Assembly (NCBI GenBank): GCA_028245195.1
Contig: JAOKCF010000005.1
Span: 1-64,000, forward strand
Source of the DNA: Vicingaceae bacterium
GTDB lineage: Bacteria; Bacteroidota; Bacteroidia; Flavobacteriales_E; Vicingaceae
DNA: 64,000 bases
Reading direction: 5' to 3'
In this document: one piece after another, positions 2,491 through 53,256 of the stretch
Position numbering within the stretch: the stretch's first letter is position 1
How the letters are laid out: each line of letters begins with the position of its first letter
Made by a program: the position numbers and the translations under genes
The notes under the pieces: model-generated
Seen by the model: the letters and a program-made list of their open reading frames with translations, nothing else
What the model was told of the DNA's origin: nothing
The model's database searches: none

Positions 2491-4284
2491 ATGAAAAATC
2501 TTATTACTTCATTTTTAGTTTTATCTTCAATTCTTTCGTTCGCTCAAGCTACGAGTGGAGGTCCAGATAGTTTTGGGTATACATATAAATCTTCAGCACA
2601 TCCAACTGGCCCAAGTTTTCAATGGTTTGATATTTCACAAACTGGCACAATTATAACGGGATTAGCGGATGATAACTTTGTTGGCCCCTATTCGATTTCA
2701 GGATTCCCATTTTATGCAGGAAATCCAACAAATTTATACATTGGCTCCAACGGTTATATTTCTTTTACTCCTGCAAATATAGCTTCAACAAATGCGCAGT
2801 TTCCAATTATTCCACAAACCACAGGAGCGAATAACTTTATAGCTCCCCTCCTTACCGATCTTTCATTTGCAGGGGCTACTAATCCTGCATCTTGTTATTT
2901 CTATAATCTAGGAGACACCATTTGTATTACTTTTGAAAAAGCTCCTTTTTGGATTAATAATACGAGTCAATTTGGAGGAGAAAACACATTCCAAATTATT
3001 TTAAACAAAAGAGACTCTTCAATCACCGTTAATTATAAGAAACAATTAGGGTTGCCCGATCCAACATATGTCAATAATTTCCTTAGCATAGGAATCGAAA
3101 ACAGCACTGGAAATGATGGATTACAATACTATAGAGGGACTACTTTTCCAACTGATAGTACAAGTATTCGATTTGAATATCCAAATATTATTCAACCCAT
3201 TACTGATATTGCTGTCGATTATATAGGAAATCCCGGAAATGGTGGTGAGTTCTTAGCAATAAATGGGAATTTTACTGCCACTGCCTCAATAAAAAACAAT
3301 GGTAATCAAGATGTTAACTCAAATATAACTATAAATACTAGAATTATTGATCCTGCCGGTCTTACAGCGTTTAGTGCAACTCAAACTATAGACTCCCTAT
3401 TACCGGGTAATGACTCAATAAAATCATTTGGAACATTTTCCCCTGCAGTTGCCGGAAAGTTTATCGTACGAACCTATGTTTCACAAGTGTTTGGCGATGC
3501 TGCTGTTACAAACGACACAAGTGAACTTTTACTAAAAGTGTTAGATACAACACAATCTCCTATAACCTTAGACTTCACAGATGGTTTGAGTGGTGCAGGT
3601 ATTGGCTGGGCTGGCGGAAATGGTGGATGTGGAGTCTACATTAAACCACCTTATTACCCTGCTAGAATTGTTGCTGCAAACTATTTCATCACAACAGCAG
3701 CAGCGACCCCTTCATCTGGATTCCATAGTATAATTTTGGATGATAATGGAAGACAAGTAGGACAAGGAACAGTTTTAGATTCCATCTTTATTGCTGCAGG
3801 TAACATCGCAATTGGAGTATACAACAGAGTTCCTTTAACTACGCCAATAGTAGTGAATAGTGGAGGTATTTATTTGTATTGGTTAATGGATGGCCCTAAT
3901 GCGAACTTAGGCAGAAGTTTTAACTCTCCTGCTTCTCGACAGACGTATGAAATTATATTCGGATCATGGTCGGAATACAGAGATAAACTGACACAGGATT
4001 TTTTAATGAATGTTGAAGTGACTCCTTTAGCAACAGGAATAGAAAATATTAACTTAAGTACAATTGGAAAGTTATATCCAAATCCTGCAAAAGAATATGT
4101 GCGAATTGAGTTAAAGCAACCAACGAATAAAATTATTGAAGTACTTGATGTGAATGGAAGAACGGTTAATGCAAAAGTGATTCGCTACACGAGCTATTTA
4201 GAAATCTTACGAAGTAATCTAAAGTCTGGAACTTATTTCTTAAGAGTTGGGAATGAAACGAAACCTTTTGTTTGGGTAGATTAA
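2491..4284 (+). CDS. Secreted protein with type IX secretion C-terminal sorting domain
   Basis: The 597-residue product has an N-terminal signal peptide (SFLVLSSILSFAQ) and a C-terminal type A sorting domain over roughly the last 80 residues. That domain is recognisable from GKLYPNPAKEYVRIEL, a central LDVNGR turn and the closing LKSGTYFLRV. This domain targets proteins to the type IX secretion system of Bacteroidota. The N-terminal third contains SNGYISFTP-type segments, as in beta-sandwich modules of secreted adhesins and enzymes. The middle part (about residues 240-350) resembles a CARDB/Ig-like domain, with alternating asides on 'IKNNGNQDVNSN'. No catalytic motif is visible, so I call it a secreted or surface protein without assigning activity. 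Its stop codon overlaps the stop of the convergent MBL gene by four bases. Confidence 0.9.
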   Translation: MKNLITSFLVLSSILSFAQATSGGPDSFGYTYKSSAHPTGPSFQWFDISQTGTIITGLADDNFVGPYSISGFPFYAGNPTNLYIGSNGYISFTPANIASTNAQFPIIPQTTGANNFIAPLLTDLSFAGATNPASCYFYNLGDTICITFEKAPFWINNTSQFGGENTFQIILNKRDSSITVNYKKQLGLPDPTYVNNFLSIGIENSTGNDGLQYYRGTTFPTDSTSIRFEYPNIIQPITDIAVDYIGNPGNGGEFLAINGNFTATASIKNNGNQDVNSNITINTRIIDPAGLTAFSATQTIDSLLPGNDSIKSFGTFSPAVAGKFIVRTYVSQVFGDAAVTNDTSELLLKVLDTTQSPITLDFTDGLSGAGIGWAGGNGGCGVYIKPPYYPARIVAANYFITTAAATPSSGFHSIILDDNGRQVGQGTVLDSIFIAAGNIAIGVYNRVPLTTPIVVNSGGIYLYWLMDGPNANLGRSFNSPASRQTYEIIFGSWSEYRDKLTQDFLMNVEVTPLATGIENINLSTIGKLYPNPAKEYVRIELKQPTNKIIEVLDVNGRTVNAKVIRYTSYLEILRSNLKSGTYFLRVGNETKPFVWVD

Positions 4285-5045
4285 ACGTGAAACGCTAAGC
4301 CATCGTAAGCAATCTTGACATTTTTGGGTAATTCCTTTTCGGTTTCGGAGTGTTTTCCCATAAGGTGACTTATGTGAGTTAAATATGCTTGTTCAGGGTT
4401 CAACTCCTCAATTAATTCTAGCGCTTCCTCTAAATTGAAATGAGAAATGTGCTTATCCTTTCGCAGTGCATTTAAAATAAGTAATTTAACACCTTTTAGT
4501 TTTAGCTTTTCAGGTTCACTTATGTAATTGGCGTCCGTTAAATAGGCAAAATCACCAATCCGAAAACATTTTACAGGTAACTTGTAGTGCATCACGTCAA
4601 TTGGCTGAAGCAAAAAGCCTCCAGCATTGAATGGTTCTTCATCTATGCTGTTTAAATGTATTTTTGGAACACCAGGATATTTATCAGCGGCAAATACATA
4701 TTCAAATTCACGCTTCAATGCGGTTTGAACTCTTTTTGTTGCAAATACTTCCATTTCTTTGCCTTCATTCATGAAGTTAAACGCTCTGACATCATCTAGC
4801 CCTGCTACGTGATCTTTATGCTCATGCGTGAAAACCACTGCATCTAGTTTCTTAACATTCGCCCGCAGCATTTGCTCCCTAAAGTCAGGTCCCGTATCGA
4901 TAACGATTGTAGAATCATCATTTTCTACCAAAATTGAACTTCTCCTGCGGTAGTCCTTCTCGTCAGTTGACTGACAAACATAACAATCACATCCAATAAC
5001 AGGAACCCCTTGCGATGTTCCGCTTCCGAGCACTGTCACCTTCAT
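4281..5045 (-). CDS. MBL-fold metal-dependent hydrolase (PhnP-like)
   Basis: This is a 254-residue metallo-beta-lactamase-fold protein. The metal motif THEHKDH is at residues 73-79, followed by the GLDD segment, and later MHYKLPV and THISH supply further histidines. The N-terminus GSGTSQGVPVIGCDC with the C-x-C-x2-C cysteine cluster is typical of the PhnP/cyclic-phosphodiesterase branch, in which cysteines bind a structural zinc. The substrate is probably a small phosphodiester, but this is inferred from the family. It lies two bases downstream of the cysteine desulfurase and belongs to the same minus-strand operon with glmM. Confidence 0.9.
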   Translation of the reverse strand: MKVTVLGSGTSQGVPVIGCDCYVCQSTDEKDYRRRSSILVENDDSTIVIDTGPDFREQMLRANVKKLDAVVFTHEHKDHVAGLDDVRAFNFMNEGKEMEVFATKRVQTALKREFEYVFAADKYPGVPKIHLNSIDEEPFNAGGFLLQPIDVMHYKLPVKCFRIGDFAYLTDANYISEPEKLKLKGVKLLILNALRKDKHISHFNLEEALELIEELNPEQAYLTHISHLMGKHSETEKELPKNVKIAYDGLAFHV

Positions 5046-5047
5046 CT

Positions 5048-6181
5048 TTAACTGGTATAAATTTTAGAAATTACCTCTACCGTTCGGTCCACATCAGCGG
5101 TAGTATTAAAACGCCCAAAGGAGAAACGAACAGAGGGTCTGTCCATGGGAGAGTTAATTCCTCTAAGTACATGAGATCCGATATTCGATCCTGAGGAGCA
5201 AGCGCTACCACCTGAAACACTAATTCCTTCAATATCTAAATGGTACAAAAACATTTCATCTACTTCAGAATTTGGGAAGCATACGCTTAGAACAGTGTAG
5301 AGTGAATCTTTTGATTCTGAATCTCCATTAAAAGATATTCCAGGAATTTCTTCTTTCAACCTTTTAATCATGTACGATTTTATATTTTGAATTTCTGATT
5401 GATGGTAATCCAGTTCTGTGTAAGCAATTTCTAAAGCTTTTGCTAATCCTACTATTCCATAAATATTTTCTGTTCCGGCTCTCATGTTGCGCTCTTGCGA
5501 ACCACCAGTTATCATAGGTTTCAACTTTACATCACTACTCATATAAAGAAACCCTATTCCCTTAGGTCCGTGAAATTTATGTGCTGCACAGGTAGCAAAA
5601 TGAATATTTAAATCCTCAAAATCAAACGGATAATGCCCCATTGTTTGAACCGTATCGGAATGAAAAAAGGCATCGTATTTTGAGCACAATTCCCCAACTT
5701 CTTTCAACGGTAACTTGGTAGCAACTTCATTGTTGGCATGCATTAAGCTTACCAATATAGACCCTCCTTGCATGAGTAACTCTTCCAAATGGTTCAAATC
5801 AACTTTACCTTTATTGCAAACGTTGATTATACTCAATTTAACACCTTTATCATCTCTAAGTTCCTCAGCAGTGTGCAGCACTGCATGATGTTCTAGCTCT
5901 GATGTAATTATATGATTAACTCCTAAGTCTTCAACGCAGCAACGTAAAATCATGTTGTCCGCTTCTGTTCCTCCAGATGTGAAGAAAAATTCAGAAGGGC
6001 TGGCATTAAAAAATGATGCAACCTTTTTTCGGGATTTCTCAATAATACTGCGAGCCACCCTGCCGTCTGAATGAATAGATGATGGATTTCCAAAATTCTC
6101 ACTTAATACCGGAATCATTGCATCAATAACTCGGGGATCAACGGGTGTTGTTGCTGCATTGTCTAAATAAATATTCTTCAT
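5048..6181 (-). CDS. Cysteine desulfurase (NifS/IscS type)
   Basis: This 377-residue PLP enzyme removes sulfur from cysteine to give alanine and a persulfide, supplying Fe-S cluster or thio-cofactor assembly. Visible hallmarks are the N-terminal YLDNAATTPVD, the PLP lysine in AAHKFHGPKG (Lys202) and the catalytic cysteine in GGSACSSG (Cys328) on a short loop, as in the IscS/NifS class I group. The length is slightly below E. coli IscS (404) and close to NifS types. It sits between glmM (11 bases upstream) and the MBL hydrolase, without isc/suf genes next to it. Whether it feeds iron-sulfur clusters or tRNA thiolation cannot be told from context. Confidence 0.93.
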   Translation of the reverse strand: MKNIYLDNAATTPVDPRVIDAMIPVLSENFGNPSSIHSDGRVARSIIEKSRKKVASFFNASPSEFFFTSGGTEADNMILRCCVEDLGVNHIITSELEHHAVLHTAEELRDDKGVKLSIINVCNKGKVDLNHLEELLMQGGSILVSLMHANNEVATKLPLKEVGELCSKYDAFFHSDTVQTMGHYPFDFEDLNIHFATCAAHKFHGPKGIGFLYMSSDVKLKPMITGGSQERNMRAGTENIYGIVGLAKALEIAYTELDYHQSEIQNIKSYMIKRLKEEIPGISFNGDSESKDSLYTVLSVCFPNSEVDEMFLYHLDIEGISVSGGSACSSGSNIGSHVLRGINSPMDRPSVRFSFGRFNTTADVDRTVEVISKIYTS

Positions 6182-7599: not shown

Positions 7600-7804
7600 C
7601 TATACTTTAAATTTAGTCCAAAATTAGCCATTTTGAAGCCCACAAGTGTCCATTAAATAACGAGTTGTTAAAATTTTTCAACTGTTTCTCCAAATAATTA
7701 ATGCAGTTAATCTTGTTAATTTCTTTGTGAATAATAATACTTAACCGACCTTTGCTAATCTGATATTTTTACAATCTTTGTTAAAAGACGATTAGTTGAA
7801 CGGT

Positions 7805-9220
7805 ATGGAAAATGAATATGAGTTTTCTTTTGAAGATGGAATGGATATTACTGCCACTGTGCAGCGATTCGAGTCCATGTTGAACGAAAGGACTAATCTC
7901 TTTTTCGACGTGGAAGAATTTGAGAACTTATTAGAGTTTTACAATTCTAAAAGTAATTTCAAAAAATCCTTACACGTTGCTAAAGCCGCATTAGAACAAC
8001 ATCCCGGGTCAGCGTCGCTTTTAGTTAGTGTAGCGCAATTGTATGCGAGTATTCATAAACCTCAAGAGGCATTGAAGTTCTTGCAGCAGTCTGAGGCCAT
8101 CGAGCCTTTTAATTTTGATTTGTTTTATACCAAGGCAGGTATTTTTAGTCAACTTCGGAAATCTGAAAAAGCAATAGAGAATTACAAAAAAGCGCTTAGC
8201 TTTTCTGAACGCTATGAACGTGAAGATATACTTCTTCAATTAGCGTTCGAGTATGAAAACATGGACAAGCACGATGAAGCGATAGAGTTTTTGAAAGAAA
8301 TTTTACTTGAAAATACTGAAAATGAAACCGCTTTGTACGAATTAGGATTTTGTTTTGATATTTCCGAACGCATGGAAGAGGGTAAAAACTATTTTCAAGA
8401 CTTCGTAGATAGAACTCCATATTCCTATATTGGATGGTACAATTTAGGCATTACCTATTCAAAATTAGATCTATTTGAAAAAGCAATAGATTGTTATGAC
8501 TTTGCAATAGCAATAAAAGAAGACTTCTCATCTGCCTATTTCAATAAGGCACATTGTCTAAATCAGCAAAAGAAATATGAGGAGGCATTACTTGTTTTTA
8601 ATGAAACCTTAAAATTTGATACCGAAGACGCTCTCTGCTATCATTACATGGCAGAAAGCTTTGAAAAACTTGAGGAGTATACGAAGGCCATTTCATTCTA
8701 CAAGAAGGCAATATCATTCGACGAGTATTTGGCAGATTCTTGGTATGGAATTGCAGCCTGTTATTTCGAAATGGAGAAGGAATTAGATGCGATAGCGTAC
8801 ATTGGAAAAGCAATTAAGTTAGATGAATTTAATCCTGAGTACTTCTATCTATTAGGTGAGGTTCAAACGGAACTTGGATTTCATACTGAGGCATTGAAAG
8901 CTTTTGAAACTGTTTACGACTTGGATCCAGAAAACGACTCTATTTTAATTGATTTAGCAAATACCTCCAAGGAATTAAACATTTTAGAAGAAGCAATGAA
9001 CTATTTTGTTCTAGGTGTCCAAAACCAACCTAAAAATGGCAAGCTATTGTATAATTTTGTAGCGTTTCTATTACAAAAAGGAGATTTAATAAATGCTATG
9101 TTTTATTTAGATGTAGCACTAAAAAACCACTATAAAGATAAGGATGCGCTTTTTGAAGCTTATGAAAAAGCAAAAAACCACCCTCAAGTAATTGACTTAT
9201 TAGAGTATTACAAAAAATAA
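7805..9220 (+). CDS. Tetratricopeptide repeat protein
   Basis: The protein is made almost entirely of tetratricopeptide repeats. Helical pairs with the alternating W/L-G-Y-A-F pattern recur about every 34 residues (for example ALYELGFCFD, GWYNLGITYSKL, SAYFNKAHCLNQ, DSWYGIAACYFEM). I chose ATG at 7805, giving 471 residues; a TTG three codons upstream would add only three. There is no signal peptide or transmembrane segment, so it is probably cytoplasmic and acts as a protein-protein scaffold. It is the first gene of an operon running into comA (3-base gap), rhodanese, DUF368 and aroE. Its partner is unknown. Confidence 0.9.
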   Translation: MENEYEFSFEDGMDITATVQRFESMLNERTNLFFDVEEFENLLEFYNSKSNFKKSLHVAKAALEQHPGSASLLVSVAQLYASIHKPQEALKFLQQSEAIEPFNFDLFYTKAGIFSQLRKSEKAIENYKKALSFSERYEREDILLQLAFEYENMDKHDEAIEFLKEILLENTENETALYELGFCFDISERMEEGKNYFQDFVDRTPYSYIGWYNLGITYSKLDLFEKAIDCYDFAIAIKEDFSSAYFNKAHCLNQQKKYEEALLVFNETLKFDTEDALCYHYMAESFEKLEEYTKAISFYKKAISFDEYLADSWYGIAACYFEMEKELDAIAYIGKAIKLDEFNPEYFYLLGEVQTELGFHTEALKAFETVYDLDPENDSILIDLANTSKELNILEEAMNYFVLGVQNQPKNGKLLYNFVAFLLQKGDLINAMFYLDVALKNHYKDKDALFEAYEKAKNHPQVIDLLEYYKK

Positions 9221-9223
9221 CAA

Positions 9224-10009
9224 ATGAATTTTAACCTACCACATATACCCCACAGAACGACTTCTCCAAGAGAATCGGGACTAACAATGATGATGGACAA
9301 AGGACTTAGCTGGAGACAGTCGGAGAACTTTGTTGATTGTTCTGCTCACCTGACTGACTTAGTAAAGTTGGGTTTTGGAACTTCATATGTCACAAAAGAC
9401 TTAGAACGAAAAATCGAAATATACCACAAAGCTGGGATGAAAGTGTACTTGGGTGGAACCTTTTTCGAGGCATTTATTATCAGAGGAATGTTCAATGAGT
9501 ACAGAGACTTATTGAATAAATTAAACCTTAAAACGGTAGAAGTGTCAGATGGATCCATTGAACTGGACCACGACCTTAAATGCAAATACATTCAAGAACT
9601 AAGTAAAGACTTTACTGTACTTTCTGAAGTAGGGTCTAAAGAAGAAGGGATATTAATTAGTCCAAGTAAATGGATTAACATGATGTCTTCCGAAATAGAG
9701 GCCGGCGCTTGGAAGGTCATTGCTGAAGCAAGAGAAAGTGGTAATGTTGGAATATACCGACCGAATGGAACTGCCCATGTTGCATTGGTAAATAAAATTA
9801 TCGCAAAAGTTCCATCTGAAAGTATCCTTTGGGAAGCTCCTAAGAAACCACAGCAAGTTTGGTTCATCAAACAATTTGGAACCAATGTTAATTTAGGAAA
9901 CATAGGTCACGATGAAGTGATTCCTTTAGAGACATTGAGAATTGGTTTAAGAGGAGACACATTTCATGATTTTTTACCGGAAGAGCTTGCAAAAAAAAGT
10001 TTAAAATGA
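9224..10009 (+). CDS. comA: Phosphosulfolactate synthase (ComA family)
   Basis: The 261-residue product matches the ComA family, TIM-barrel enzymes that add sulfite to phosphoenolpyruvate to form (2R)-phospho-3-sulfolactate. Recognisable features are GLTMMMDKGLS near the N-terminus, DLVKLGFGTS, the KVYLGGTFFEAF strand, the VSDGSIEL segment and the late ISPSKWI and FGTNVNLGNI stretches. It is known from coenzyme M synthesis in methanogens and sulfolactate synthesis in Bacillus spores (YitD). Bacteroidota make no coenzyme M, so sulfolactate or cysteate is the more plausible end product. The next-step phosphatase ComB is at 50536-51270. Its stop overlaps the rhodanese start (ATGA), indicating translational coupling. 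Confidence 0.88.
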   Translation: MNFNLPHIPHRTTSPRESGLTMMMDKGLSWRQSENFVDCSAHLTDLVKLGFGTSYVTKDLERKIEIYHKAGMKVYLGGTFFEAFIIRGMFNEYRDLLNKLNLKTVEVSDGSIELDHDLKCKYIQELSKDFTVLSEVGSKEEGILISPSKWINMMSSEIEAGAWKVIAEARESGNVGIYRPNGTAHVALVNKIIAKVPSESILWEAPKKPQQVWFIKQFGTNVNLGNIGHDEVIPLETLRIGLRGDTFHDFLPEELAKKSLK

Positions 10010-10305
10010 AATTTTTAGAACTTGAAGCAAACGCTTTTAAAGCTGATATAACGCATAAAAAGAGTGCTTTTATACTTGATGTGCGCGAAGAATATGAATT
10101 TGAAGATGTTAATATTGGAGGAGTAAACATGCCAATGGGTGAAGTACTTGCCCACATCGAAGAGCTAAAAGAAAAAGGTAACATTTACCTTATTTGTAAA
10201 TCTGGTAAGCGTTCAAGAGCAGTTGCATATCACCTATCTAAAGAGTTGGATAACTGTAATGTATACTCCTGCATTGGTGGAATTGATGCATATACTGCGG
10301 TTTAG
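10006..10305 (+). CDS. Single-domain rhodanese-like protein
   Basis: This is a 99-residue protein consisting of one rhodanese domain. It has the ILDVREEYEFEDVNIGG motif and the active-site loop ICKSGKRSRAV with the catalytic cysteine at residue 64. Such domains carry a persulfide and move sulfane sulfur, with thiosulfate, polysulfide or protein persulfides as possible donors. It overlaps comA by four bases and is followed directly by the DUF368 gene (stop TAG abuts ATG). The coupling with a sulfite-consuming enzyme suggests a role in sulfur handling for that step, which is inference. Confidence 0.9.
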   Translation: MKFLELEANAFKADITHKKSAFILDVREEYEFEDVNIGGVNMPMGEVLAHIEELKEKGNIYLICKSGKRSRAVAYHLSKELDNCNVYSCIGGIDAYTAV

Positions 10306-11232
10306 ATGAAAAGATCTACAAAAGAAAATGTTCTGCTAGCCTTAAAAGGAATGGCAATGGGTGCTGTTGAGCTAGTACCTGGTGTTTCTGCTGGAACTAT
10401 TGCATTACTGACCGGTATTTACGAAGAGTTTATTGATGCACTTAAGGCATTTAGCACAGTATTTTTTATTTTGAAAAACGACGGCATAAAGGGTGCTTGG
10501 AATCATGTGAATGGAAATTTTCTGGTAGTGCTTTGTGCAGGAATGGCTGTTGGAATTGTAACACTACTTAAACTCATTAAATACCTATTAGAGTTTCAAT
10601 CTATACCTATATGGTCATTTTTCTTTGGATTAATAATTGTTTCTAGCATTTATATAGGTAAAACAGTTATTAAGTGGAAACTACCACAAGTAATTGCCCT
10701 TATAATAGGAACTGTAGCTGTTTATTTAATAACTGGTTCTGCACCTTCTGAAGCTTCTACCTCCTTGTTTTTTGTATTTGCTGCTGGCATGTTAGCCATT
10801 TGTGCCATGATTTTACCGGGTATTTCAGGTTCTTTCATCTTGGTTTTATTGGGAATTTATATTTATATTATTGAATCACTAAGCGAGTTCGATTATATGG
10901 TTTTGATAGTTTTTGGACTAGGATGTATTATAGGTTTAGTAAGTTTTACTCACTTACTATCTTATCTTCTAAAAAAGCACCATGACATTACCCTTGCGCT
11001 GTTAACGGGATTCATGATTGGATCGTTGAATAAAATTTGGCCTTGGAAAAGAACGATTTCAACTATGATTGATCGTCACGGAGAAACAGTACCAAGAATT
11101 CAAGAAAATATTTTACCTCAAAGTATGGAGGTCGACCCGCAGTTAGGTGTTGCAATTGCATCTGCTATAGCAGGTTTTCTATTAATTTTTATGATTGAGA
11201 AAGTTGCTGCAATGCAAAATAGCTCGACATGA
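10306..11232 (+). CDS. DUF368 family membrane protein (polyprenyl-phosphate transporter type)
   Basis: The 308-residue integral membrane protein has about eight hydrophobic segments. It contains two copies of the family's re-entrant motif, PGVSAGT (in VELVPGVSAGTIALLTGIY) and PGISGS (in MILPGISGSFILVLLGIY), implying an inverted internal repeat. DUF368 members were recently shown in other bacteria to return undecaprenyl phosphate across the cytoplasmic membrane (PopT), so that role is likely here. It starts at the base after the rhodanese stop and overlaps aroE by four bases. The conserved flavobacterial pairing with aroE is familiar to me but the reason for it is not known. Confidence 0.9.
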   Translation: MKRSTKENVLLALKGMAMGAVELVPGVSAGTIALLTGIYEEFIDALKAFSTVFFILKNDGIKGAWNHVNGNFLVVLCAGMAVGIVTLLKLIKYLLEFQSIPIWSFFFGLIIVSSIYIGKTVIKWKLPQVIALIIGTVAVYLITGSAPSEASTSLFFVFAAGMLAICAMILPGISGSFILVLLGIYIYIIESLSEFDYMVLIVFGLGCIIGLVSFTHLLSYLLKKHHDITLALLTGFMIGSLNKIWPWKRTISTMIDRHGETVPRIQENILPQSMEVDPQLGVAIASAIAGFLLIFMIEKVAAMQNSST

Positions 11233-50535: not shown

Positions 50536-51270
50536 TTATATTTTTAATCCTACACCATCAAAAATAGGCACCAGGTCGGTAGTATCTATTTGAAGGCAAT
50601 ATTCTATGTCTTTTTCCAAATTTAAGCGTTGTAATCTTCTTCTATGGGAAGAATTTTTCAAGAAATCATTAAGGTTGCCTTTTGCTGATTGATACATCTG
50701 TTTTGCAGCCAATGAAGAGTCAGTAATTCCTGTAAAAACCTTGCTCCCTTCAAAATAATTGACTACTGCCCCTGCAAAAAGAGAATCCTCCAAATTGTAT
50801 CTTCCCTTCCATCCTGCACAAAGTAGAATAACATCTTTATTTTCCCTTTCTAAGTGCTTACAAACAGCGGTTAAATTTAAAAATGAACCGATAATGATTT
50901 GTTCCGCTGATTTCGCTTTTTCAATAGCTTGTGTTCCGTTAGTTGTGCTTAAAACAACATCCTTACCTTTTAATTCGGGGTTCATGTAACTAAAAGGAGA
51001 GTTACCTATATCAAATCCTTCAACAATTTCACCATGTCGTTCAGCAGCTGCAAAATATCCTTTTGCTTGATAGGCTCTGGCTTCATCAATTGTCGCAACC
51101 GGTATTATTTGGTTAATACCTTCTTGAAAAGCAGTACAAATGGCAGATGTTGCTCTAAATACATCAATCACAACTACTACACATTCCTTTTTGGTATAGT
51201 AAACGGGAAAAAGGTCAGGTGAATAACAAACCTCTAACTTCCGTTGGAATTCATTCTCAGTTGTTTCCAT
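50536..51270 (-). CDS. comB: 2-phosphosulfolactate phosphatase (ComB family)
   Basis: The 244-residue protein matches ComB, which removes phosphate from phosphosulfolactate to give sulfolactate. The opening VVVVIDVFRATSAICTAFQ, then GNSPFSYMNPELKGKDVVLS and STTNGTQAI are characteristic of this phosphatase group, as is the acidic NLEDSLFAGAVVNYF helix. Together with comA at 9224-10009, it gives two sequential steps from PEP and sulfite to sulfolactate. Its neighbours (gcvT, a broken lipase) do not show the onward steps. It is two bases from gcvT and may be co-transcribed. Confidence 0.9.
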   Translation of the reverse strand: METTENEFQRKLEVCYSPDLFPVYYTKKECVVVVIDVFRATSAICTAFQEGINQIIPVATIDEARAYQAKGYFAAAERHGEIVEGFDIGNSPFSYMNPELKGKDVVLSTTNGTQAIEKAKSAEQIIIGSFLNLTAVCKHLERENKDVILLCAGWKGRYNLEDSLFAGAVVNYFEGSKVFTGITDSSLAAKQMYQSAKGNLNDFLKNSSHRRRLQRLNLEKDIEYCLQIDTTDLVPIFDGVGLKI

Positions 51271-51271
51271 A

Positions 51272-52351
51272 TTACTTTACAAAAGGAAGTTTTACAATTT
51301 CGCACTTCAACTGGCGACCTCTAACTTCTACAAAAATTTCTGTTCCAATTTTCGAAAGCTCCTTGGTTACATAACCCATTCCTATACTTAATTTTAAAGT
51401 GGGAGAAGAAGTTCCAGAAGTAACTACCCCTATAGAATTACCTTCAGAATCATTGATTTGATATTCTTTTCTAGGAATTCCTCTATCAATCATTTTAAAA
51501 GCAACGAGCTTTCTAGTTATTCCTTTTTCTTTTTGCGCTAAAAGAAATTTACTGTCAACAAAGTCATTTGTAAACTTCGTTATCCAACCCAAACCGGCTT
51601 CAATTGGGGAAGTTGTATCGTCTATGTCATTACCGTATAAGCAAAATCCTTTCTCTAACCGTAACGTGTCTCTAGCTCCTAGACCCGCGGGCATAATTCC
51701 GTTTCCTTGACCTGCTTTCATAACGGCAGCCCAAATTTTTTCAGCATGTTCGTCATCAAAATAAATTTCAAACCCTCCTGAACCAGTATATCCTGTGGCT
51801 GAAACTAATACGTTATCTACTCCGGCAAATTTTCCTTTTTCAAAGGTGTAATACACCATTTCGGTTAAATTAATATCAGTTAAGCTTTGCATAGCCTCTG
51901 CAGCTTTAGGTCCTTGAATAGCCAATAAGGTTGTTCGGTCAGAAATATCCTGTAGCGTTGCTTTAAAGGTATTGTTCTTTTGAATCCAGTCCCAATCCTT
52001 TTGAATGTTAGAAGCATTTACTACTAACATGTATACTTCTTCCTCTAATTTATAAATCAGTAAATCATCAACAATTCCTCCTCTACCATTTGGCATACAA
52101 GAATACTGTACTTTCCCAACCTCTAACTTTGAAGCATCGTTAGTACTAATTTTTTGAATTAAATCCAGAGCTTCTGTTCCTCTAAAAATAAACTCTCCCA
52201 TGTGAGAGACATCAAAAACCCCAACGCTATTTCTTACTGCCAAGTGCTCTTGCGTTAATCCAACGTATTGCAAAGGCATGCTGTAGCCTGCAAATGGTAC
52301 CATCTTGGCCCCTAATTCTATGTGTACTTTATTTAGTGCGATCTCTTTCAT
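51272..52351 (-). CDS. gcvT: Aminomethyltransferase (glycine cleavage T protein)
   Basis: From ATG 52349-52351 the protein has 359 residues and matches GcvT, which transfers the glycine-derived methylene group to tetrahydrofolate. Marks are GVFDVSHMGEF, VYMLVVNASNIQKDWDWI, ATGYTGSGGFEIYFDD and GARDTLRLEKGFCLYGNDID. A TTG at 52358-52360 would give three more residues but the ATG is preferable. No gcvH or gcvP genes lie nearby. Downstream on the same strand are comB and the broken phospholipase gene, with two and five base gaps. Confidence 0.95.
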   Translation of the reverse strand: MKEIALNKVHIELGAKMVPFAGYSMPLQYVGLTQEHLAVRNSVGVFDVSHMGEFIFRGTEALDLIQKISTNDASKLEVGKVQYSCMPNGRGGIVDDLLIYKLEEEVYMLVVNASNIQKDWDWIQKNNTFKATLQDISDRTTLLAIQGPKAAEAMQSLTDINLTEMVYYTFEKGKFAGVDNVLVSATGYTGSGGFEIYFDDEHAEKIWAAVMKAGQGNGIMPAGLGARDTLRLEKGFCLYGNDIDDTTSPIEAGLGWITKFTNDFVDSKFLLAQKEKGITRKLVAFKMIDRGIPRKEYQINDSEGNSIGVVTSGTSSPTLKLSIGMGYVTKELSKIGTEIFVEVRGRQLKCEIVKLPFVK

Positions 52352-52352
52352 A

Positions 52353-53256
52353 TCATTCAATTATTTCTTTCAAATATTTTAAATACAACTCTTTTGTGGA
52401 AGAAACTGAATATTTGTTGATCACGGTTTCTCTTCCTGCTCGACATATTTGCAAACGTAATTCTTTATTCTCAATCAACTTTGATAATTGTTCATACCAA
52501 TAGTTTTCCGTTGTAGCTAATAATCCATTTTCACTGTGGGTCACGATATGCGTATTCACACCAACTGGAGACATTACAGTTGCGGATTCCATTGCCATGT
52601 ATTGTAGTACTTTAGAACCGCATTTCCCTCTACTCCACTGATCATCTGATAAAGGCATTATCCCTATATCAATTTCTTCTAGTTGTTCAATTTCTCTTTC
52701 CTTATTCCATTTTTCATTTTTCAGGTCAATGCCTTCTGCATTCCATGGTTGATCACAAATAACTTTAAAGTAAATTTTGTCTCCATAGGTTAAGGTTAAT
52801 CTTTCAAAAACAGGCTTTACCATTTCAAGATACTTTCTAGTAGTTTCTGTTACCGTCCAACCCAATACAAATACGATTTGAAGTATTCTGATTTCTGAGC
52901 TTATGATAATCAGTATCTATTGTAGTAGGAATAATTTTGACATCAGAGCAAAACTCAGAAGCATAGTCGGCCAAATGTTCATTTCCAGCAAAGACCATAT
53001 CTGCGCAGCTTATAATTTCTTCAGTTTTAGAAGGATTCTTCAACATTTGAAGAGCCTTGTTTCCAGAAGAGACGTTAGGCAGCCAGATGGCGTCATCAAA
53101 ATCGAAAACTACCTTTGCTGAAGAACTTGCAAACTTTCTTTCAAAAAAAGTACTAGAAGTTAACAAGGCTTCCCTGAAAACGAAAATTTTATCGAATTAG
53201 TTCGCACGCTACACATCTCTTTTTCTCATTCTCCAAGCTCTTTTCGCTATTAATGC
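52353..53256 (-). pseudogene. Broken glycosyltransferase (GT4-like), N-terminally truncated
   Basis: The minus strand from about 53256 encodes KRAWRMRKRDV, then stops, then FREALLTSSTFFERKFASSS and KVVFDFDDAIWLPN, a DFDDA motif of GT4-type glycosyltransferases, followed by a segment up to NRICIGLDGNRN. There the frame shifts, and after that GWTVTETTRKYLEMVKPVFE and DIGIMPLSDDQWSRGKCGSK continue the same family's nucleotide-binding C-terminal half (GxxE-type). Several stops (TAG, TAA near 53215-53205) and a frameshift interrupt it. The first ~80 residues of the enzyme are missing. It overlaps the gcvT start region's end by no base. Neighbour of a second broken glycosyltransferase. Confidence 0.82.

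Follow-up and report, generated by a model that had tools for sequence, protein, structure and literature searches.

The stretch of DNA analysed (the window) comprised 64,000 nucleotides at the start of contig JAOKCF010000005.1 from a Vicingaceae bacterium (assembly GCA_028245195.1). Reading of the window placed comA and the adjoining rhodanese gene in a plus-strand run of five genes, TPR-comA-rhodanese-popT-aroE, which is larger than the two-gene segment (9224-10305) singled out in an earlier note (Table 1). The end of the TPR gene (start taken as the ATG at 7805; the ORF list has a TTG at 7796) and the start of comA are separated by 3 nt, the comA stop codon (TGA, 10007-10009) overlaps the rhodanese start codon (ATG, 10006-10008), the rhodanese stop codon is followed by the popT start with zero gap, and popT and aroE again overlap by ATGA. 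The ATGA overlap of comA with a single-domain rhodanese gene had been reported in the earlier note, and its coordinates proved exact on re-reading. The PopT homologue matched the NCBIfam polyprenyl-phosphate transporter model at 6e-108, below that model's cut-off. A comB homologue was located about 40 kb from comA, 1 nt from gcvT (aminomethyltransferase, 51272-52360), the pair spanning 50536-52360 on the minus strand. The opposite (minus) strand immediately before the operon carries, at 4281-6181, a class V aminotransferase/cysteine desulfurase-like gene (5048-6181) and an MBL-fold gene.

Table 1. Positions of the comA operon features and of comB in the window
Feature	Position	Strand	Basis
TPR-repeat protein (operon gene 1)	7805-9220	+	TPR Pfam families
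comA, phosphosulfolactate synthase homologue, 261 aa	9224-10009	+	PF02679, E 4.9e-87; PDB 1u83, 1qwg
ATGA stop/start overlap, comA/rhodanese	10006-10009	+	Read directly
Single-domain rhodanese, 99 aa, loop CKSGKRS (Cys64)	10006-10305	+	PF00581, E 4.8e-9
popT, PopT/DUF368-type undecaprenyl-phosphate translocase homologue, 308 aa	10306-11232	+	PF04018, 2.2e-88
aroE, shikimate dehydrogenase, 245 aa	11229-11966	+	PF08501, 1.8e-19; TIGR00507, 8e-49
comB, 2-phosphosulfolactate phosphatase homologue	50536-51270	-	PF04029, 5.3e-81; NCBIfam 2-phosphosulfolactate phosphatase family, 7e-62

The comA product matched PF02679 over the full length of the profile (positions 2-243 of 243; 291.8 bits against a cut-off of 25.2), and its nearest solved structure was that of B. 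subtilis YitD (PDB 1u83, E 9e-49). Altogether, 47 residues were identical in the window ComA, Methanocaldococcus jannaschii ComA, YitD and more than 97% of 222 alignment rows, with K48, K63, K139, E168, R170, R239 and R243 among them. The score against the archaeal equivalog model TIGR03849 (251 bits) was below its cut-off of 280, and the window protein is therefore named a ComA homologue and not the archaeal equivalog. Sulfite is the established substrate of the ComA family, and the window protein, judged by its sequence, looks like a genuine member, predicted to catalyse the formation of phosphosulfolactate from phosphoenolpyruvate (PEP) and sulfite. There was no sign of a non-catalytic relative, against which the kept residues and the presence of ComB both speak. 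Two apparently longer ComA fusions (L171 and L172) were rejected, their extra N-terminal part reading as low-complexity sequence from an in-frame extension upstream and not as a domain.

The downstream protein is a predicted rhodanese-fold sulfurtransferase, matching PF00581 with 37 bits (cut-off 22.2) and carrying D25, R27, C64, G67, R69, G91 and G92, which were invariant in a 27-row alignment. The catalytic loop CxxGx[R/K], in its fuller form CxxGx[R/K][S/A], was kept in 123 of 123 intact linked rhodaneses whose loop region was complete; a degenerate rhodanese was ruled out, as the catalytic cysteine is present in every intact linked copy. Scores against the GlpE and PspE equivalog models (19 and 18.4 bits) were far under the cut-off of 102, and the closest named NCBIfam models of the linked rhodaneses were MoeZ/MoeB C-terminal rhodanese domains, not thiosulfate enzymes.

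Within the order, comA was found in 42 of 46 genomes, including all 32 with at least 90% completeness. A profile built from linked rhodaneses was searched for at the same-strand position immediately after comA, and by this search a rhodanese was present there in 39 of the 41 comA genomes that could be assessed and absent in two (G302 and G310); G314 was left out, its contig ending at the comA locus. The four order genomes lacking comA, all incomplete, contained only weak paralogous rhodaneses (53-72 bits, versus about 88-143 for linked copies). Among the nearest 80 comA loci with named records, the rhodanese was adjacent or fused in 68 of 79 that could be assessed (7 of these 68 fused), and the spacing of the two genes, taken over 116 loci, had a median of 8 nt; it did not exceed 50 nt in 105 loci, was an overlap in 32 and had the same -4 value in 16. 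The earlier note had proposed a functional link between comA and the rhodanese, to be regarded as accidental if the two were rarely neighbours in other genomes; adjacency throughout the order and at the near loci bears the link out, and the fusion of the two proteins described below goes further still. Chance overlap of the two genes is ruled out by conservation and fusion. In the wider class, which was sampled by the 150 best-scoring comA matches so that family fractions are approximate, a linked rhodanese occurred in 16 of 42 families and comA stood without such a neighbour in about 26 of 42, which makes the rhodanese an accessory and not an obligate partner, and indicates that ComA can work without a rhodanese neighbour. 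The presence of the rhodanese changed at least nine times on the comA tree, so the neighbourhood is not merely frozen.

At eight loci (L060, L063, L064, L067, L068, L070, L076 and, in genome G516, L164) ComA and the rhodanese were encoded by a single ORF of 378 aa. ComA occupied residues 10-245 and the rhodanese residues 278-369, both above Pfam cut-offs in the three fusions scanned; the fusions were constant in total length, had an intact catalytic loop (CRSGARS) and corresponded to one event on the comA tree. An AlphaFold model of the fusion contained two folded parts and a low-confidence linker (227-272); the alignment was shallow and the mean pLDDT 70.8 (moderate quality), and the model was therefore used for domain layout only. 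When proteins that are elsewhere separate occur fused, this is usually the best genomic indication that they cooperate, and here, at the level of sequence, the fusion is the strongest evidence for a predicted partnership of ComA and rhodanese. That the two act together is very probable, and the functional link is well supported by genomics.

The TPR gene was upstream of comA in 113 of the 116 loci at which the rhodanese gene is separate and in 8 of 8 fused loci, and the gene order TPR-comA-rhodanese-(translocase)-aroE was otherwise often kept. The slot after the rhodanese (10306-11232 in the window; L032, L041, L055, L064 and others) was occupied by popT/DUF368 in many loci and by DedA in others; the comA tree shows six or more switches between them, and the comA-rhodanese pair persisted whether the downstream gene was popT, DedA or neither. 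As the third gene is exchanged while the pair is kept, it is ComA with which the rhodanese keeps company. The PopT and DedA families are unrelated, and for each of them a function as undecaprenyl-phosphate flippase has been reported (PMC9876793, PMC12893004); a flippase role applies to one of three DedA subfamilies only (PMC10127716), and the downstream protein at L064 was assigned at DedA family level only. A correlation of the rhodanese with a popT/DedA translocase (110/118 versus 18/78) looked strong, but is not claimed, since it represents about five independent contrasts on the tree. In a lineage without the rhodanese (L056, L061, L069, L073, L079), a protein of about 295-300 aa, with WD40-looking repeats on inspection by eye, was encoded a few nucleotides after comA. 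In another class of the same phylum (L082, L100 and similar loci), a gene resembling, again by eye, the N-terminal part of glycogen/starch synthase followed comA as a different conserved neighbour.

Among 395 genomes of the class, comA was present in 321 and comB in 325, 307 having both, 14 comA alone, 18 comB alone and 56 neither (overlaps of comA with comB, and with CFAT below, were obtained by comparing genome tables, as counts not corrected for phylogeny). ComC (Ldh_2, PF02615) was found in 0 of 46 order genomes, the window's own genome included, and a coenzyme M route past sulfolactate is therefore not indicated. The window's genome does encode an orthologue of cysteate-C-fatty acyltransferase (CFAT; L229 1438-2679, minus strand, contig C7), which matched CFAT structures (PDB 28eh, 2e-174; 7u7h, about 1e-174) versus 6e-69 for serine palmitoyltransferase. 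CFAT was present in 348 of the 395 class genomes, so that sulfonolipid capacity looks very widespread in the class, and in the same uncorrected counts it occurred in 306 of 321 comA genomes (95%) versus 42 of 74 comA-less genomes. The high proportion among comA genomes suggests that the ComA sulfonate may feed capnine lipids, perhaps with sulfopyruvate and cysteate as intermediates between sulfolactate and the capnine sulfonolipids. In the pathway as described, cysteate for sulfonolipids comes from L-phosphoserine, via cysteate synthase (PMC11211663); in the 1.75 Mb read of an assembly of 2.33 Mb, the only proteins bearing on the presence of a cysteate synthase were one PLP protein of cystathionine beta-synthase type and one that is threonine-dehydratase-like.

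A PF01507 match was present in 45 of 46 order genomes, and most of the order genomes have both CysD and CysH (the longer match being taken as CysD and the shorter as CysH, as read from one genome in which both lie beside cysN), which provides another sulfite source there. A CysH-size match was absent from 6 of 32 near-complete order genomes (G297, G312, G322, G327, G329 and G333), and comA-rhodanese was kept in all six. The window's genome has cysC, cysD and cysN in one place (L292 8855-11684, contig C12), and cysH was not found by a whole-genome family search and a reading of 1.75 Mb of this MAG, which is 84% complete. Retention of the pair in the CysH-less genomes, and cysCDN without cysH, indicate that the sulfite need not derive from sulfate reduction, and a non-assimilatory sulfite source in the window's genome is plausible. 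With this gene set, PAPS may be formed as a donor for sulfation and not as a step towards sulfite. The same genome encodes a 467-aa protein with an MBL fold and a rhodanese domain (L281 420-1820, contig C23), related to PDB 3r2u/3tp9 and a possible candidate for providing sulfite or thiosulfate.

The gene pair, its conservation, the fusion, the intact catalytic motifs and the co-occurrence with ComB and CFAT are the observations that a mechanism has to accommodate. Rhodaneses release sulfite from thiosulfate, and the best single mechanism is a supply of sulfite by the rhodanese to ComA, to which we would give an even chance; both the rhodanese substrate and the direction of sulfur flow are what we infer from the setting. 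Sulfane sulfur from thiosulfate, or from a similar compound, would move onto the catalytic cysteine of the rhodanese, and sulfite released close to ComA would be consumed there at once in the reaction with phosphoenolpyruvate, the resulting phosphosulfolactate then being dephosphorylated to sulfolactate, presumably by ComB. Consumption by ComA would also pull the sulfite-inhibited rhodanese reaction and hold free sulfite low. For E. coli PspE, the product sulfite is a strong inhibitor (PMC2593051), for which reason pairing with a sulfite consumer would help, removal of sulfite by ComA favouring the release direction. Against supply count the occurrence of comA without a rhodanese in many families, CysD/CysH in most order genomes, the preference of TST discussed below, the MoeZ/MoeB-like nearest models and the fact that fusion arose just once.

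A further-reaching version of sulfite supply, offered tentatively as possible but on the unlikely side, is a thiosulfate-driven sulfonate synthase, in which sulfite from thiosulfate or a persulfide would be passed to ComA in a complex or within the fused protein, giving a second cysteate route beside cysteate synthase. If this were true, Bacteroidota without assimilatory sulfate reduction would be able to turn reduced inorganic sulfur into sulfolactate and cysteate and, through CFAT, into capnine sulfonolipids.

It is unlikely that the rhodanese works in the reverse direction, passing persulfide sulfur to sulfite to form thiosulfate and so balancing or removing sulfite unused by ComA (detoxification or flux control). 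Human TST does form thiosulfate out of sulfite and a persulfide (GSSH) with much higher efficiency than it runs the reverse, but it differs in having tandem domains and another loop, CRKGVT (PMC10135228); and while the MBL-rhodanese protein in the window's genome would suit a buffering role, a fusion of two competing sulfite consumers is harder to explain than one of a supplier and a consumer. Quite unlikely, too, is carriage of persulfide to another, MoeZ/MoeB-like acceptor, or regulation of ComA by persulfidation, with ComA serving for docking and not receiving sulfite: the nearest NCBIfam models and the cysteine desulfurase-like gene nearby on the other strand would be consistent with it, but the operon has no sulfur-carrier protein or E1-type gene, and the fused or adjacent partner is ComA, which uses sulfite. 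Mere inheritance of the two genes within a conserved TPR-comA-rhodanese-translocase-aroE operon, without direct function between their products, is improbable, for although TPR, popT/DedA and aroE are conserved neighbours as well and have no known sulfonate role, the pair outlasts swaps of the downstream gene, the presence of the rhodanese changes repeatedly on the comA tree, and the two reading frames are joined at eight loci.

Sulfonolipids are characteristic lipids of Bacteroidota, whose way of forming the sulfonate is understood only in part. Across the class as sampled, ComA and ComB are very widespread and co-occur with the first sulfonolipid enzyme, in one large lineage they are tied to a dedicated rhodanese, and the 378-aa fusion is one protein in which the origin of the sulfite can be addressed. 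C3 sulfonates such as sulfolactate are reported to be important in the environment as currencies of carbon and sulfur (PMC11382572). Within the open-access literature searched, no paper was found that names both ComA and a rhodanese, and none that links ComA with sulfonolipids, in agreement with the view of the earlier note that such a two-gene module is not known as a characterised unit in Bacteroidota. The enzymes are of known kinds; their pairing and the fused architecture are apparently undescribed within the literature searched.

Among known systems, the coenzyme M pathway of M. jannaschii shares with the present one a full-length ComA family protein with the invariant residues and a ComB homologue, and the first two steps are predicted to be the same; it differs in that the 46 order genomes have no ComC, that ComA here scores under the TIGR03849 cut-off, and that the pathway as described has no rhodanese partner or fusion, both of which are present here. 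B. subtilis YitD (PDB 1u83) is a bacterial ComA homologue, and the nearest one with a solved structure, but the neighbours of yitD are sulfate-activation and reduction genes and are not known to include a rhodanese, whereas one adjoins comA here. The capnine/sulfonolipid pathway (cysteate synthase, CFAT/SulA, KCR) is represented in the window's genome by the CFAT orthologue; its described start is L-phosphoserine (PMC11211663), whereas a feed from ComA and ComB is a proposal only. The persulfide dioxygenase-rhodanese fusions (BpPRF, CstB-like) offer a precedent for a rhodanese fused to an enzyme of sulfite metabolism, and BpPRF (5ve3) was itself a profile match of the linked rhodaneses; the partner in those fusions is a dioxygenase of metallo-beta-lactamase fold, whereas here it is the ComA barrel, with a different chemistry.
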